DNA from: Neelides folsomi
Lineage: Eukaryota > Arthropoda > Collembola > Neelipleona > Neelidae
Direction: 5' to 3'
Assembly (NCBI GenBank): GCA_034687125.1
Contig: JAQGBZ010000306.1
Coordinates: 1-64,000, forward strand
Length of the DNA: 64,000 nucleotides
Shown here: in pieces, positions 11,615 to 27,062 of the stretch
How the letters are laid out: each line of letters opens with the position of its first letter
Position numbering within the stretch: position 1 is the stretch's first letter
The notes under the pieces: generated by a model
The model's input: only the letters and a program-made list of their open reading frames with translations
Database searches by the model: none
What the model was told of the DNA's origin: nothing
Made by a program: the position numbers and the translations under genes

Positions 11615-12269
11615 TTCAATTTGAAAGTTTGAAAGTTCTTGATTCGAATAAAAATACTAACTTTTTGATATTTGAAAAAGAATGCCATATTTTCTGTGTA
11701 TATATACTGTTTAGAAACATTATATTTACGTGATTTCATTTTTTAAAAGACTTATTGATTGAATTAAATATTTAATAATTGAAACCATTGTATGAACTGA
11801 TGGAACTGAATTTGTTTTAATGATCATCTGGGTAAATAATTTAAACTTAACTTTCAACAATTGAATATTTGATTGAAAATACATTACCTATATAATAATA
11901 ATTTTTAAAAAACTAGTTAAACAAATGGGTATACTTATGATTAATGTAATTATGATAATCAAAGTATTGGATATTAAATATTATTCGGTATACATATACA
12001 GGGCGGGCCACGAGTTGCTTTCTTTTTTAAATAAACAATCGTATAAAAAAGAAAGCAACGTATGGCCCACCCTGTATATGTAGTAAACTTTAAACATTTA
12101 TGTTTGTGTAATATGTTTAACTATTGATTTAGTTTAAAGAGAATCTCTAAAGGTCTTTTTAAAAAATTTGAAAAATTTTTAATGTCTAAATAAATGTAAA
12201 TAATGTTGAATTTTTATAATATGCATATTGAAAATTGATTGATGTCTGATGTTAGATGTTATCAATCTA
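11615..12269. other. Spacer; no gene seen
   Basis: AT-rich sequence upstream of the small CBM14 gene. Apart from the MITE at 11997-12076 no structure is evident. Confidence 0.5.
11997..12076. mobile_element. 76-bp MITE, CAGGGYGGGCCA family, copy 1
   Basis: Terminal inverted repeats begin CAGGGCGGGCCA and end TGGCCCACCCTG, flanked by TA dinucleotides, which suggests Tc1/mariner-type TA target duplication. Nearly the whole element folds on itself. The core ACAATCGTATAAAAAAGAA is shared with the copy at 55491-55569. Confidence 0.85.
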
Positions 12270-12600
12270 ATAGGTACATTTGTGGTTTAGGTAAGTTTTA
12301 TATATAACAGTGAATTTTTATCAGTATCAGGAATGACATTAGTTTCTCTATATTAGTTCATTAAATAGAAATGGAAAATCCATAAGAAGCAATATAATTT
12401 TGTTTAGTTTCAGCACATCTGGTACCATTCGTTTGTTAATTTTCTAACATTATACATTAAATAATACACTTTATATACCCGTGAATAACCTTTATGTGAG
12501 TGTCAATTAATAAGATCATAAATAAATCATATTTATTTAAGTAAGTACGAATTGTATATTCAATATACATTAGAACATTACGACATGGTGAAATTATAAT
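12270..12600 (+). pseudogene. Duplicated NAT promoter with truncated NAT start
   Basis: This stretch is clearly similar to 15710-16075, the region upstream of the complete NAT gene. Shared words include CATTAAATAGAAATG, ACCATTCGTTTGTTAATTTTC and AAATCATATTTATTTAAGT. The similarity extends into the start codon: ATGGTGAAATT is followed here by TATAA, giving only Met-Val-Lys-Leu-stop (ATG at 12585). The NAT body is absent; sequence then resembles the 3' flank shared with the Cys-rich gene. It is a deletion relic of a tandem duplication. Confidence 0.75.
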
Positions 12601-12852
12601 ATCAGTATAATAGTAACGTATATTAGGTATTATGAATTTGCTAATTACTAGTATTTATAGTATATGTAATAGGAAACTTAATATTGGATAGTATCCAGCA
12701 TGTAAATAAAATATATTAATTTTTGATTTGATTATACTATTTTTCTATACAATTCTTTATTTCCAATTCATGCAGAACTACTAATTACATTTACATTTTT
12801 TATGATATAATTAAAAAAAAACATATTTATAATTAGATGTGAATTGTCTCTA

Positions 12853-13621
12853 CTAATAATAATAGAATTGTGTGCAACATTCTGTTTTGCAAGTAGGTGG
12901 AGCTCCAGCTAGACAAGCTCTTGATGTAGCTGAAGCCGGTTGACAAACTGGAATACAATCTCTACACATTTGGCTACACATTGGTCCAGGCGGAATTAAA
13001 CTGCAATCCCCGACGAAAAAGTCACAGATAGTACCTGGAGTTCGCTCTGTGGTTTGTGGGGTTGGACGGCATAATTCGGGAAATATTCTGCAGAACAAAC
13101 TCTATATTCTTGAATTGTCTTTATATAAAAAATAAATAAAAATATTTTTTGATATTTAAATAAATTAAAATAAAATTATATTTTATATACATAGTGTAAT
13201 TTGGGCTGAGATTCGGAGTCTCTGCAAAACTATGCTAGAACCATGGGGCACCATGTTTCCCTATTCTTATATGTTAATTAGGTTAGGTTAGGTTAGATGG
13301 CGCTAATCAACATTCCTATTCAAATGCACGCTGGAACCATGGAACATGGTTTTGAACCATGGAAAAACTGGTTTTGCAGAGTTGTTAGCCGTAATTTGAT
13401 TTTGTAATTTGTACCTTCAAGCGTCATGGTGTTGTTGAATACAATTGTTGAATTCACATCCTATATTAAATTTCATAGTTTTTCAAATTTTGGAGAAAAA
13501 TAATTTAAACAGGCTGTGTATGAAAAGAGTTTTTACAATTTTTTAATAATATTTGAACACTTGCGGCCGATAAACAGGCAATATAGAAGAGAACAGCAAC
13601 CGACAAAATGAATTTGGCCAT
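12853..13621 (-). CDS. Small secreted cysteine-rich protein, copy 1
   Basis: Signal-peptide exon MAKFILSVAVLFYIACLSA starts at ATG 13621. The main exon (about 12853-13115) encodes RIFPELC, a Thr/Pro stretch, then a cysteine-rich core ICDFFVGDC...CSQMCRDCIPVC...ACLAG...CKTECC and a Tyr tail. A middle exon at about 13410-13456 (DVNSTIVFNNTM) is conserved in the paralogue and has good splice signals. I could not join all three in frame with GT-AG junctions, so the exact model is open. The first donor is GC (GCC|GCAAGTG) where the paralogue has GT. It is paralogous to 17581-18124 and recognised as no known family; a secreted structural or defence role is possible. A 187-bp MITE lies in the intron after the middle exon. 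Confidence 0.7.
13204..13390. mobile_element. 187-bp MITE with 8-bp target duplication
   Basis: Direct repeats GTAATTTG at 13196-13203 and 13391-13398 flank a segment beginning GGCT and ending AGCC, with subterminal inverted CTCTGCAAAAC/GTTTTGCAGAG. The interior has several CCATGG words and a short TTAGG run. The paralogous intron at 17900-17925 lacks it and shows the empty site. An 8-bp duplication fits hAT, P or Merlin-type DNA transposons. Confidence 0.85.
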
Positions 13622-13741
13622 TTTGGTAGATTTTTGGATTTACTAGTTGAACTTGAATGAACTTTTGCTTGGGTAAACTTTGCTCATTTTTCTCCCAATT
13701 TACAGGTACATTTTACAATTAAAATTAAAATTTATTTTAAT

Positions 13742-14611
13742 TTAAAAATAGGAATGAGGGATGGATGAATGGCAACAATTCAGAATTATTAATTCTATAT
13801 ACGCACATTAAAGTACCTAAGTAAGTACGTACTTACTTACTTACAATATTATGTGATAAATATTTCGAAAAAAATTCAACTTCTTGGAAATATGTAATAA
13901 TGAATTAAAATAGAATATATATCCATAATGAAATTATTAAAAATTCTTAAATATTCCAATTTTAAAATAATTATAATCTTCTTTGATCATGTAATTATAT
14001 CTGAAGCTTTTCTGGAAAAAATCAATATATTTGAATCATACACGTTCCTTTGAGGTAGATACATTACAAACCTATATACATTAAGTTCATGTTAATTAAT
14101 CAAAATTTTATCAGTAATTTACATTAAATGTAAGCCTAAATTTGAAATTTTGAATTCTGATAAAATCTTTACCTCTGCGATCATATAAACAAAGGCCATC
14201 AAGTTACCAGTAGCAGCAAACGCCATAATTGATGCATCAGCACTCTTAGTCTTTCAACTCCTTTGACCTTTAGCCTCGGGTGAACTACTGTTTTGTGGTC
14301 ATTCGCATCTCCCATCTTACAAGTCCCAGCATACTCATTTGGGATGCCGAAAGTGTTTATTATAAATCAATAGTAGAGTAAATCTAAGGATTAATTTAGC
14401 ATTATTCAAATGAAATGTACCATAACCAGTCATTTATTCTCTTAGGTAATGGGGTTATTGTTTTATTGAAATAATTATTTTTAGACACAATGTGTACCTA
14501 GGGTAAATCCGATTGTCCATGATGATTGGAATATTAATGAACGCCAATATGTAATGGATTTTACTTTTTTTTTAGATAATAGTCTTAATTAATTCTTATT
14601 AATGGTTTATT
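13742..14611. other. No gene seen
   Basis: AT-rich spacer, with short GTAAGTACGTACTTAC-type palindromic sequence near 13818-13840. The region 14160-14350 is somewhat richer in GC, but no coding frame is convincing. Confidence 0.45.
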
Positions 14612-15314
14612 ATGAAGAATTTTATATTTTTATTCATTTTTCAGTTATTTATTATTTTAAATTTACATTGTTTTGAATCTGATAAAATAGCGCCATATCT
14701 TATTACAAAGTTAAAGCCTATCCAGCAAAATAACGTAAAATCGTATTTTTATGACTTGATTGTATTTTAAACGTTTAAAAATTCATTTTAAATTTTTTAA
14801 AATCATGTAAAGTACATTCTTAATGTAATATAAATTATAAATTTTATTGAAAGAATGAAGACTCAGAAAAAAATGAAACGAGTAACGGAAGTATTGAAAC
14901 GGTTTTAAAATCACTTTTGGATTTTCTCCAAACTGTCTCTTCTGGCAAAAATCTTCCAAATTTCCCCATTCAATTAAAAACAGGAAATGCATCTGATGGC
15001 GGAGCTTTCTTTTCTTCTCCAATTTGTTTTGGATACTGTTTACTTGCACAAGTAATGATGATTTTTAATTACATCTTATATAATTTATGCAAATTAAGTA
15101 TATAAATTTTATAAATTTTTATTGATTATTTTTAAAGATATTTTGGGCCAATTCATCCGTTTCATTATTCGGAGCAAAACTTCCATTTCCACCACCGGGA
15201 CAAACAACTCCAACTAAATTAAGTTTGGTCCATCCCACTAAACCTAGCAAGCGGAATAATACATTCAATATATTTTCTAATGTGCCCGCAATAACTTTAC
15301 GACCAATTGTTTAA
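14612..15314 (+). CDS. Small secreted protein of unknown function
   Basis: Exon 1 (14612 to about 14736) gives a signal peptide MKNFIFLFIFQLFIILNLHC and a short polar stretch ending before GTAAAA. Exon 2 (about 14854-15050) and exon 3 (about 15139-15314) join in phase 0. The mature chain of about 140 residues has SLLDFLQTVSSGKNLPNFP, a GGAFFSSPICFGYC segment, a Pro-rich PFPPPGQTT stretch and a C-terminal half with Lys/Asn/Ser. Only two or three cysteines are present. No family recognised. It lies between the two duplicated NAT/Cys-rich units and is transcribed towards NAT. Confidence 0.6.
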
Positions 15315-16054
15315 ACTCTAATCTACATACATATAATTCATTTATAACAATTTGTTCATACAAATTTTCATATTGGTTCAATACAGATATTGTTGATTCA
15401 TGTTTACATAAATTTTAATGACTACAAACTTGAACTTAAATGCTTAGATTATCAATTTTCCCATTGTTATTCATAATCAATGATGATTAATCATGATTTA
15501 CTATTTGATTATACTGATACTTTAACTTTAAGATTCAATGAACCCCTTTGGAGCACTAAAAATAGTAATTTCATATAGTACCTACTTAGGCACTTACAGA
15601 TGTACAGATACTACAATATTTATTGTATGTACAGACATATGAATTTTATGTAATTTAATACTAAAATATTAAAATAATTAAAACTCATGTTTAAGTAATA
15701 TGTATACCTATGCATATTTGTAGTTTGGGCAAGTTTTATATAAAGGTGAATTATTAAATAGTTATTAGCTAGCATTAATGAACAATAAGTTAAGTAATTC
15801 AATGCCATAATGTCAATAGTTTATCTGCTACTTTCCAAGGCTAGTTTCTCTCTATTGATACATTAAATAGAAATGAAAAATCCATAAGCAATATAATTTT
15901 ATTCAGCTCCAGCACATCTGTTACCATTCGTTTGTTAATTTTCAAAGCAATATCTTGTATACTCTATGTGTGAGCGTCAATCAATTAATAAAAATATAAT
16001 TAAATCATATTTATTTAAGTCGTACAATTTTTATATTCAGCAAACATTATAACA

Positions 16055-17193
16055 ATGGTGAAATTGGACGACGAAGAAATTACGCTTTTCATTAAAAACA
16101 AATTGAAACTTGATTTGGATTGGAAAACAAAATTTGAAGAAGACAAATGGGCTTTATTGAAACAAATCTATAAAAAATTTAGAATTGAAATTTACTTTCA
16201 GGTTTTATAATACCTAATTAACACCAATACCATATATCAAAGCCCTGATATATCTATTATATACAACTATGTAATAAATTCAAATCTTTTACTGTGGTGT
16301 AGTTTTCACTTTAATTTTTTTAAATTTATTTTTAGAGCATGTCTGTAGTATTAGAAAAAAAGGTCCCGTCTCGTGAATCGTCTGTGAATAAATGTCTAAA
16401 AGGAATTGGTGGCGCTTGTATTGACAACAATCATTTTCTCCTCTGTCTTTTGAAAGGAATTGGATATGATGCTTATGGAGCAGGAGGAGATTATTTCCAA
16501 ATGTGCAAGAATCCTCTGAATCATTATTTTTGTGTTGTTCGGGGGGACAATGGAGAACTTTGGGGAGTCGACGGCGGGTGCTGCAACCCAACCCATCAAT
16601 TCATTCCACTTCATGAAATACCTAAGAAATCTTATGTGATGAACCAAGGTGGATTTGATGTGGAGATTCGGCTAAATAAAGAGAAAAATTATTTCGAAAA
16701 AGCTCAACTTCTTGGAGCTTATATGAAAGGAGAATATGTAAATAACAAATAATAATTAATTTGTAGAATAAATAGCTATAAATGAATTTATTAAAAATTC
16801 TTAATTATACAATATTCTAATTTTAAAATAATTATTTTTAATAAGGATGATGGGAAATTGGAAGATGTCATTAAACGCTTCACAATTGAACCTGTCGAAT
16901 ATGAAGAATTCATTCCTACCATGACTGGTCTTTTTACGGATACAACTGAAATGTTTTTCAATATTGGTTTGGCATTTTTCCGTTATCTTGAGATTTCCGA
17001 TGACGATGAGAGTTACAAAGCAGTGGTCGTATGGGGTCTTAAAGTTGCCAAAGCAACAGAAAAAGGAACAGAAAGAACTTTGTTTTCTTCTTATGAAGAA
17101 ATGTGGCCAACTGTGCACAAATATTTCCCACTTATACAGAAAAATGATTACGACAAAGCAGCTTTGACATTTGAGAACAAAAACAAAGAATAA
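16055..17193 (+). CDS. Divergent arylamine N-acetyltransferase-like enzyme
   Basis: Exons 16055-16201, 16336-16737 and 16846-17193 join in phase 0 to a protein of 298 residues, the usual NAT length. The catalytic triad is readable: Cys in GIGGACIDNNHFLLCLL (normally GGWCxxxN), His in NHYFCVV and Asp in LWGVDGGC. The glycine-rich GAGGDYF loop matches the position after the first helices. NATs move an acetyl group from acetyl-CoA to arylamines or other amines through the cysteine. The N-terminus (MVKLDDEEITLFIKNK) is more acidic and shorter than usual. The gene has a duplicated promoter relic at 12270-12600. Opposite-strand open frames over exon 2 are shadows. The fold assignment is good; substrate unknown. 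Confidence 0.8.
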
Positions 17194-17580
17194 TGTATTT
17201 TTGTTATTAATCAATGCATGATTGAATAAATTGCTTAAAGTTAATTCTAAATTCATCTAGCAAAATTTAAAATTATTTGTATTTTTCTAATATCAGTAAT
17301 CATTACTATCACCGCCAGTATTATATATAGTGTAATAGTCTAATAGTGTATTACATATGATTTTATGATCAATGAATTTTCCTATTATTTGAAACTTAGT
17401 GATAATGGATAATCAGTATGTCATATTAAGTCTTGGTTTAATTAATTGGGCGATTTTTCTATTTTACCATTCTTTATTTACAATTCATTTATAACTACAT
17501 TTAAATTTTTTATGATAGATTAAAAAACATATTTGTAATTAGTAATTAGATGTGAATTGTCTCTAATAATAATAATAGAA

Positions 17581-18124
17581 TCATGGTCCACAACATTCTG
17601 GTTTGCAAGTAGGTGCTGGAGCTCCAGCAGCTGGAGCTGGACAAGTTCTTGGTGTAGCTGCAATCGGTTTACAAGTGGTCGGACAATCTTTACACGCTTG
17701 GATACACGTTGGTCCAGGCGGAGTTAACATGCAATCCCCGGCGAAAAAGTTACAGGTAGTGGGAGTTCGGACTGTGGTTGTGGTTGCGGAGGTTTTGCAG
17801 AATTTGGGAATTATTTTGCAGATCAAACTCAATTTTCTTGAATTGCCTTTTTTGATTTTTTTAATATATTAAAATTAAGTTATATTTTGTATACAGGTAA
17901 TGTGCTTAATTTGATTTTGTACCTTCAAGTGGCATAGTGTTGTTGAATACAATTGTTGAATTCACCCCCTATATATTTGATAAGTTTTTCAAATTTGGAA
18001 AAATAATTTAAATAAGTTGTGTAAAAAATATTTTTCAGAATTTTTTAAATAATGTTTGAACACTTACGGCGGATAAACAGGCAATATAGAATAGAACAGC
18101 AACTAACAAAATGAATTTGGCCAT
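17581..18124 (-). CDS. Small secreted cysteine-rich protein, copy 2
   Basis: Signal peptide exon MAKFILLVAVLFYIACLSA (ATG 18124) ends at GCC|GTAAGT. A conserved middle exon at about 17926-17971 (GVNSTIVFNNTM) follows, then the main exon with IIPKFCK, a Thr run, TCNFFAGDC, CIQACKDCPTTC, an Ala/Pro insert, and CKPECCGP ending at TGA 17581. The cysteine pattern equals that of the copy at 12853-13621, with a Pro/Ala insertion before the last cysteines. Introns and flanks are also similar, indicating recent duplication. As in copy 1, the last junction could not be closed in frame by eye. Confidence 0.7.
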
Positions 18125-18211
18125 TTTGGTAGATTTCTGGCTTTTCTGGATTTACTTTTTGAACTTGATTGAACTTGTTGCTTGGATAAACTTTCCTGAT
18201 TTTTCTCCCAA

Positions 18212-18217
18212 TTTATA
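18212..18217 (-). promoter_or_regulatory. TATA box of Cys-rich copy 2
   Basis: TATAAAT on the minus strand, about 90 bp before ATG 18124, in a block conserved with the paralogue. The matching site in copy 1 (13699-13704) reads TGTAAAT. Confidence 0.5.
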
Positions 18218-18259
18218 GGTAGATTTTACAATTAAAATTAAAATTTATTTTAATTTCCA

Positions 18260-19303
18260 AACCAGGAATTATTCAAATGGGGAATGAATGGCAATAATTT
18301 TAGGTGCTTACAGAGTTACATTATCTGATTGATAAAAGAATAAATAAATTTGTAAATCGTAAATATGCGTAACATTGAGAAACATCACATCTAACAAACA
18401 TTTAGTATGATCTCTACCTGGATGGAAGCACTTTTTTAAATTGTAAACGACATAATGAAAATATATATGATAATTCCAAATTTTAATATAAACGTGTGTT
18501 GTTATTGCAATTTTCAAGGTAAGGGAAATGTATTTAACTAACATTAAGCACTACATACCTACATGTTATTTATTTGGTATTTTGCGTATAAAATTATAAT
18601 CCTAAGCAAAAAATTTGAAAGGGCAGTAATTTCCTGAGTTTATTTTCGCCATCTTTTATATTGAAATTTGAATACAAGGTAATAATGATGAAGTTAGAAT
18701 ACAAAATTTATGTTTTTCAATATAAATATATTTATTTGAATCAAAGAAGGCAAATTTTATTTTTCCGCATATGCATAATACGCATGGTATACAGTATGCA
18801 CACATACATATAATTTAACATTTCCTGGTTACCTATTTATTAGTGCCCTATGTTACATTGGCTGGCTTTGGTTGTTCACTTATTTGGCTTCAATTCACAC
18901 GTTCTTATAAATGTACGAGTATATTATGTATGTGGTATATGGTACATATGCATGTAAATAGTAGGGTATCTAGTTCTACAGATAATATGGTATTGATAGA
19001 TTGATACTTTATCATATGATTTTAATTTTTTTTAATTGTTAATTTCATAGTAATTGAATTAAACGTCATTATAATACATTTATAATAATTTAAAAATATT
19101 AAACCAAATAAGTACAATTACACATTGATTTAAAACTCATTCCGAACAAGTCTTTATTTTAAGATCATTATTAATTAATATGTTCAAACATTTAAAAAAT
19201 TCAAATATCTTATTAACACGGTTATACCTACTTTAATTTAATTATAAAAATATACAACATTTATGCAATCAATCAAATTTATGTAAGTTTTATTAATGTG
19301 GGT
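18260..19303. other. No gene seen
   Basis: AT-rich spacer. Short open frames near 18308-18544 show no recognisable content. Confidence 0.5.
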
Positions 19304-25095: not shown

Positions 25096-27062
25096 ATGAA
25101 CAACTTTTACCACCCTCACCCAATGCCAATTTACTGGAAACAGAAGACATTCATTTTCTTCTTTTTCTTCTCGGCCTTTTTCATCTTGGCATTCTCCATC
25201 AACTTTCTCATTAACAATAACAAAATCGTCTTCTTAAAGATACGAAATTCTGAAGAATTTAAACCCAAGTACAAGGAAATCTCAAAGCCAGTTCAGGATA
25301 AACTTCTTGTGATTATGTTTGATGGGTACTTACAATTCATTGAATTAACAATCATAACTATCCATATTGAGATTATTCCCAATTAATAATGTATTAATTC
25401 ATTTACAGTTTTAAATCTGAATATTTAACAAGCTTTGGAGAATTGAAAGGATTTAATCGGCTTATGAAAGAAGGTGCGATGGCCAAATGGATGGAACCAA
25501 TTTTCCCATCGCTTTCTTACGCGTGTTGGACAACGCTGACCACAGGACTTTATGCTGAATCTCACAATGTCATTGGCAACTCCATGTACGACATTTCGAG
25601 GTCTGGACCTTCGGCTCATTTCCATTTCGGAAACATTCATTCGACCTCTGACCCTCATTGGTTGACGACTGAGCCGATTTGGATCACTGCGACCAAATCC
25701 GGGAAACGAGTGTTTGGACGACGTTGGGGAAGTTGCCATGTTCCGTTTGAAGGTGTGAGACCAAAAGACTGCACTGGATATTCTCCATCACAAAAAAATC
25801 CAACGTTCAGCCAAATGCTTGATGAAGTTATTCAGTGGTTTGATGAATTTGATATGTTCATGGTCAGTTAATTTACAATTTGTTTTCTTTTCATTAACAT
25901 CAACTAAATGTAAGATTAGCGTAATTAAAATTCTCATGTTAATTCCAATTACTTGAACTATTAGTCATAATTAAACGAAGTCTCTCAAATATCATTTCAC
26001 CGTTTGAAAATTCTTTTTAGGTTTACGTTGAAGAGATTGACAACGCTGGGCATGACCGTGGACCAAATAGCCAATATATAAATGATATAGTCAAAAGAAA
26101 TGATGGAATTTTGAAAGATTTCTTGGTGAATCTTGATTCAAATAATTTGTCTTCTAAAGTACGAATAATAACCAATTCTTTTAAATTGTAAATTTTTGAG
26201 ATACAAATAAATAGCAAAATTAAAAAAAACCATTCTTATTTGATTAATTGTTTGTATTGTTTATGCCAGATTAACATTTTGGTGTTTGGTGATCATGGGA
26301 TGATAGAAGTCACGAATGTTATTCCTCTTAATGAGCATATCGACGAGGAAGATGTTAAATTAGGCATTCAAGATGGTCCTCTATTTCAATTATTTGTCAA
26401 ACCTGAGCAATTGAATAAAGTAAGAAAATTATTTATTTAAATCCAATGCCAATTTGTGGTTAGTACTATGTAAATTGTAATTGAAACCACAGATTTTTAG
26501 AAATTTCAATAATTGTATAATGTACCTGTACAAATTAAGACTGATGAAATTTAAAATTATGGCAATGGGGAGCTAAATATTGCTTTTATGTTAGGTGTCC
26601 AAAGCTGTTAAAAATATGACAGGAGTAAGTGCTTTCTTAAGGGAAGAAATTCCTGAACGATTTTACTACCGAAATTCCCGTCTGGCCCCGGAGCTTCTTC
26701 TTTTAGCAGATCCAGGAAACATGATTGTTCACTCTGGACGAAAATCTGGTTTTACCGGAATGCATGGATATGATCCACAATCTCCAGACATGAGAACCAT
26801 TTTGTTAGGACGAGGACCCGGTGAGTCAAAAAACATTTTAAAAATAAAAACTTTATACACAAACGAATAGTAATATTAATAAAATGTTAAACAAACATTT
26901 CATTAATTAATTCATTCATTTTGGAATTCAGCATTTCGGCCTGAAACAGTAGTTGAAGCTGTGAAGATGGTCGACGTTTATCAAATGTATGGGAGGCTTC
27001 TTAAAATTGAGCTCAATCCCCACAATGGAACTTGGTCTCACATTGCGTCTATGTTTAATTAA
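25096..27062 (+). CDS. ENPP-family ectophosphodiesterase, tandem copy A
   Basis: Six exons, about 450 residues. The N-terminus has a type II membrane anchor (TFIFFFFFSAFFILAF). The catalytic domain begins LLVIMFDGFKSEYL (zinc Asp). The nucleophile region reads IFPSLSYACWTTLTTGLYAESH, with Ser where most NPPs have Thr. Other zinc ligands: Asp and His in YVEEIDNAGHDRGP, Asp-His in VFGDHGM, and His in GMHGYDPQSPDMRTILLGRG. The C-terminus has VDVYQMYGRLL and NPHNGTW, a family feature. A Ser nucleophile in a PSLSY motif is known from ENPP6, a choline-specific glycerophosphodiesterase, so a phospholipid-type substrate is plausible; that is inference. The start at 25096 is preferred to upstream non-ATG codons. 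Introns are in the same places as in copies B and C. Confidence 0.9.

Follow-up and report, generated by a model that had tools for sequence, protein, structure and literature searches.

What became of a gene whose 5′ flank, first codons and downstream neighbour are all present while its body is not? The question is raised by a locus in the collembolan Neelides folsomi, within the window analysed here, which is the whole 64,000-nucleotide stretch (29.7% guanine plus cytosine) at positions 1 to 64,000 of contig JAQGBZ010000306.1 (assembly GCA_034687125.1). A unit consisting, in order, of the 5′ flank of an arylamine N-acetyltransferase (NAT) gene, the NAT gene itself (family PF00797) and a convergent cysteine-rich (Cys-rich) secreted gene occurs there in two co-linear copies on the same strand of one contig, at 12278-13780 (copy 1) and 15716-18299 (copy 2), and copy 1 lacks the NAT body (Table 1). 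We regard it as highly probable that a local pair of genes has undergone birth-and-death evolution here, with the NAT body of copy 1 lost by deletion.

Two copies of a gene unit

Comparing the copies with blastn gave co-linear matches, all on the plus strand, of 12278-12320 with 15716-15756 (E = 6e-6), 12340-12595 with 15842-16065 (E = 1e-40), 12713-13122 with 17423-17850 (E = 2e-82), 13145-13191 with 17848-17895 (E = 1e-9) and 13408-13755 with 17916-18269 (E = 7e-113), the last extending to 13780 and 18299 in a window-wide run. Co-linearity fails over the NAT body, over 117 bases past the break, over a portion of the distal 5′ flank and where the intron of Cys-rich copy 1 carries an insertion. 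Beyond the unit the copies show no similarity on the left (831 of 1,000 shuffles as good) or on the right (371 of 1,000).

Global alignment of the 5′ flanks (12270-12600 against 15700-16070) scored 257.8, compared with a maximum of 54.6 over 200 shuffles. The intact NAT begins at 16055 with ATG GTG AAA TTG GAC GAC; the remnant in copy 1 follows it to codon 4 and then runs into a stop, placing the left break between codons 4 and 5 of the NAT frame. A sequence-only reading of this DNA had proposed that the flank recurs together with the ATG and the next codons, and that each flank is followed on the opposite strand by a copy of the same Cys-rich secreted gene. Both proposals were borne out, as was the co-linear, plus-strand alignment of the two stretches that it had named.

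We also searched the whole assembly (75,104,828 bases in 840 contigs) with a tool that skips very common words. The 5′ flank matched only itself and its counterpart in copy 2 at E ≤ 0.001, and the last exon of Cys-rich copy 2 matched only the two copies in the window at E ≤ 1. Each sequence was thus found at two places in the assembly and is not a dispersed repeat; these searches, with that of a NAT fragment described below, rule out such a repeat as the source of the similarity between the copies. A ~90-base fold-back element (11991-12082; 80% self-complementary) adjoins the left end of copy 1, with at least 80 assembly matches from the best 40 of 433 first-look candidates and places matching both strands; it is a family resembling miniature inverted-repeat transposable elements. 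In keeping with an arthropod source, 39 matches to PF00379, a cuticle family typical of arthropods, were obtained, against zero across 14 control genomes.

Table 1. Features of the locus (window coordinates; UTR, untranslated region)
Feature	Position	Strand	Basis
NAT 5′ flank, copy 1, without gene	12278-12584	+	blastn, shuffle test, assembly search
Remnant NAT start, ATG GTG AAA TTA TAA (MVKL, stop)	12585-12599	+	alignment to intact NAT
Putative deletion scar, weak likeness to intact NAT 3′ flank (~17320-17421)	12600-12712	.	local score 29.5
Cys-rich copy 1 with UTRs and flank	12713-13780	-	blastn, splice-form listing
Cys-rich copy 1, frame of the last exon, open from 13101 to a stop whose end is 12853	13101-12853	-	sequence
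Dispersed repeat in Cys-rich copy 1 intron, ~184 bases, absent from copy 2	13198-13381	.	assembly search, gap in copy 2
Cys-rich copy 1, signal-peptide exon	13565-13621	-	sequence
NAT fragment (last part of exon 2, most of intron 2)	13861-13974	+	aligns to 16690-16835
Small gene, signal-peptide-like start	14612-15314	+	exons read by eye
NAT 5′ flank, copy 2	15716-16054	+	blastn, global alignment
Intact NAT, PF00797 (exons 16055-16201, 16336-16737, 16846-17193)	16055-17193	+	exon ends are a model
Cys-rich copy 2 with UTRs and flank	17423-18299	-	blastn, splice-form listing
Cys-rich copy 2, candidate middle exon, 46 nt		-	sequence
Cys-rich copy 2, last exon	ending at 17581	-	sequence
Cys-rich copy 2, signal-peptide exon, donor GTAAGT	18068-18124	-	sequence

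The NAT gene and its missing counterpart

The intact NAT has a predicted spliced product of 298 amino acids that matches PF00797 with E = 2.2e-9 and 37.9 bits, over the curated cut-off of 22.8. Searching the Protein Data Bank (PDB) with a profile of five NATs from this genome returned 14 distinct sequences, by name NATs, related acetyltransferases or GdmF (best E = 2e-11). NATs use a Cys-His-Asp catalytic triad, predicted here as Cys77, His112 and Asp128. Cys77 and His112 are invariant in all five NATs and, in the two PDB alignments shown (3lnb and 4dmo), are matched by Cys and His. Opposite Asp128 (profile position 130) stands Asp in 3lnb but Glu in 4dmo; the paralogue at locus C130 likewise has Glu in that column. 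The gene thus shares with its family the Pfam match and the aligned triad columns, Cys and His with both solved sequences and Asp with one, but it is divergent, a single-sequence search of the PDB having found no chain at E ≤ 0.01, and it has three coding exons.

The genome search for NATs gave 13 matches that fall into five loci: the window (C306), C275, C351, C604 and C130. The search matched three exons each at C275 and C351; at C604 and C130 it matched two, and there we identified the first exon by eye. As read, the first exon breaks after Phe-Gln (YFQ or PFQ) in the four paralogues, as in the window NAT; exon ends in the paralogues are models, and intron positions match as far as they were read. 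Because this exon layout is common to the NAT loci, we take the intact gene as the old state and the missing body as a loss, not as an insertion of a NAT into copy 2. A single, coarse peptide-pattern scan of genome contigs for bacterial relatives matched 21 stretches; none was confirmed, so a recent bacterial origin of the NAT is not supported by what this method can detect. Open frames at L014:2692-3331, downstream of the C130 NAT, have by eye the look of what we take to be a mariner-type transposase.

Homology between the copies resumes in the 3′ region of the Cys-rich gene, at 12713 in copy 1 and 17423 in copy 2 (blastn). The intervening junction scored 27.5 against the NAT 3′ flank, barely over the maximum of 27.3 from 200 simple shuffles; the local alignment covers 17320-17421, and the global alignment begins at 17289, with AATATCAGTA in both copies. 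Since this match is weak, the right end of the deletion can be bracketed only to 17193-17423, between the NAT stop and the return of homology, with 17289-17320 as the best guess. The lost stretch would then measure about 1.2 kb, from around codon 5 to beyond the NAT stop, its right end being approximate.

Several results weigh against the history favoured here, a copying of the unit followed by this deletion. Of 1,000 dinucleotide shuffles, 37 reached the score of the junction (12596-12712) against the NAT 3′ flank (17193-17422), and 89 did as well when the NAT body and flank together (16066-17422) were used; the corresponding counts for two unrelated control stretches were 686 and 405. The copies are separated by a 1.9-kb spacer (13781-15715), which holds a NAT fragment as well as a small gene, and nothing resembling this spacer was found in the 2 kb past copy 2 (83 of 100 shuffles as good). 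A plain head-to-tail duplication therefore fails to explain everything. In a tandem segmental duplication the copies adjoin or their spacer is copied with them; we found neither here, which leads us to call the locus a local duplication, later rearranged.

The NAT fragment itself lies downstream of Cys-rich copy 1. Its local score of 66 was reached by none of 1,000 shuffles (maximum 45.5; 609 of 1,000 for a control stretch), the only further hits that it gave in the assembly were two inside the intact NAT (E = 4e-13 and 0.18), and the sequence that follows it has no similarity to NAT exon 3 (score -10.9, with shuffles averaging -15.0 and reaching 11.6 at most). Together, the fragment and the spacer without a counterpart imply a history of more than one tandem duplication and one deletion. 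The sequence-only reading had offered exactly that minimal history: its duplication of the unit and loss of a NAT stand, and its single duplication and single deletion are too simple. The persistence of the fragment suggests that a further NAT copy, which would bring the original number to three, broke down here, or that part of the NAT lost from copy 1 was moved and broke down in its new place.

A rival account is a patchwork duplication that took in the 5′ flank and the Cys-rich gene but skipped the NAT, so that copy 1 never had a NAT body. The weak junction match fits this account, and the siting of the NAT fragment elsewhere suggests rearranged pieces; however, block order, strand and adjacency are preserved, the reading frame of the NAT is interrupted by the break and a single deletion is simpler. 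We therefore consider it unlikely.

Elsewhere in the spacer, an assembly search with the small gene found its own two exons and a next match at E = 0.15, thus no clear paralogue. A perfect 22-base palindrome (taagtaagtacgtacttactta) occupies 13818-13839, directly before the NAT fragment. Further along the window, three open frames between 25443 and 31037 (at 25443, 28113 and 30543) are alike by eye and are a possible tandem array; the frame at 25443 matches the type I phosphodiesterase/nucleotide pyrophosphatase family (PF01663, 4e-26).

Divergence of the flank and the Cys-rich pair

Mismatches were counted under one alignment setting, with the 46-nt candidate middle exon included in the intron parts; an alignment with cheaper gaps gave higher identities throughout (0.85 for the last exon, 0.86-0.90 for non-coding parts) and was not the comparison used. 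In non-coding parts of the Cys-rich gene, mismatches per aligned base were 23/159 upstream, 32/169 and 11/66 in introns and 26/133 in the 3′ UTR and flank, or 92/527 pooled. The core of the 5′ flank (40/213) did not differ from this pooled rate (Fisher's exact test, P = 0.67), nor did the NAT fragment (17/111; P = 0.68). The distal part of the flank had 20/60 mismatches and a 66-base gap, and core and distal parts together (60/273) gave P = 0.13 against the pooled rate. Such similar rates suggest that the parts are of equal age, having been copied in roughly one period and left free of constraint since.

The sequence-only reading had further supposed that the retained promoter could drive a non-coding transcript convergent with Cys-rich copy 1. 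On this account the leftover flank is a live promoter, and a short transcript from it runs into the Cys-rich gene and regulates it. In its favour, the ATG is kept, 244 of 292 aligned flank bases are identical in a gap-rich alignment (173 of 213 in the core), and both flanks contain a TATA-like stretch, a common promoter mark (12299-12307 and ~15737-15744). We looked for constraint above the non-coding rate in the core of the flank and found none, the core diverging as the rest of the unit's non-coding sequence does, and the distal part is more degraded still. A live promoter is accordingly very unlikely, '5′ flank' is the sole label that the data support, and the leftover flank of copy 1 is probably inert.

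Among the coding parts, the signal-peptide exon is the best conserved part of the unit, with 53 of 57 bases identical between the Cys-rich copies (93%; 4/57 mismatches). The last, mature-peptide exon, with 169 of 219 (77%; 50/219 mismatches), ranks above only the distal 5′ flank (40/60 identical), and the comparison of the two exons gave P = 0.008 (Fisher). In secreted peptides under diversifying selection, a conserved signal peptide is frequently seen beside a faster-changing mature peptide. Over 72 codons of the last exon, the nonsynonymous rate (dN) was 0.31 and the synonymous rate (dS) 0.21, an excess that was not significant (nonsynonymous above synonymous proportion in 914 of 1,000 bootstraps; Fisher P = 0.36). 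The nonsynonymous proportion exceeded the pooled non-coding mismatch rate at P = 0.03, uncorrected among seven Fisher tests. Insertions and deletions were multiples of three in 4 of 4 cases in the last exon versus 8 of 14 in non-coding parts, again without significance (P = 0.25). Positive selection on this exon was therefore rejected as a finding, and its divergence is suggestive, a lead only.

The two Cys-rich genes also differ in their predicted splicing. For copy 2, two two-exon and ten three-exon forms were listed, and we judge the form with the GTAAGT donor and the 46-nt middle exon to be the most canonical. In copy 1 the donor after the first exon is GC (GCC|GCAAGT), in place of the GT of copy 2, and the same splice form would hit an in-frame TAG at 13104-13102, ahead of the last exon. 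Open forms exist through a later acceptor (6 with two exons and 124 with three), so that copy 1 may use that acceptor or may be an altered or dying copy. The repeat inserted in its intron has 28 matches at 25 places in the assembly, itself counted, with identity of up to 95%. No Pfam family was found in the Cys-rich proteins at E ≤ 1, and a search of the assembly with a single query, the last exon of copy 2, gave no further Cys-rich gene at E ≤ 1.

These features can be assembled into a bolder account, which we hold to be extremely improbable. Loss of the NAT would have freed the Cys-rich gene, so that the reduced copy was kept, with its mature peptide diversifying under selection, its exon boundary re-cut (through a GC donor, and with the TAG that would otherwise halt the frame serving as part of an acceptor) and the orphaned NAT promoter giving a convergent regulatory transcript. 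Finally, a block repeated inside a single contig is a familiar sign of mis-joined haplotypes. An assembly artefact of this sort, with two haplotypes joined in tandem, has a near-negligible probability here: the non-coding sites that align mismatch at ~17%, just one of the copies carries the repeat insertion, and 1.9 kb of different sequence separates the two.

Probable birth and death of a local gene pair

Under the favoured history of gene birth and death, for which we infer the number and order of events, the unit of a NAT and a convergent Cys-rich secreted gene would have been copied locally, possibly more than once. The ~1.2-kb deletion in copy 1 would then have taken the NAT from about codon 5 past its stop, and the same decay would have overtaken either at least one more NAT or a part of the lost gene that had been moved elsewhere. 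Copy 2 would have retained the intact NAT and the better Cys-rich gene, and the leftover 5′ flank of copy 1 would be drifting like unconstrained sequence. The locus looks like an ordinary case of turnover in a gene family, and nothing indicates that the remaining piece has a function.

Birth-and-death evolution is a known pattern in tandem gene families, and the locus resembles it in that a local duplication was followed by the reduction of one member to a remnant. It differs in that the duplicated unit held two convergent genes of unrelated kinds, one of which was removed almost whole from one copy. Our few and narrow literature searches turned up no direct precedent, and we make no claim that none is in print. 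The Cys-rich secreted pair is the most promising part of the locus, which as a whole offers a small, readable case of one gene of a duplicated pair being erased while its neighbour survives.

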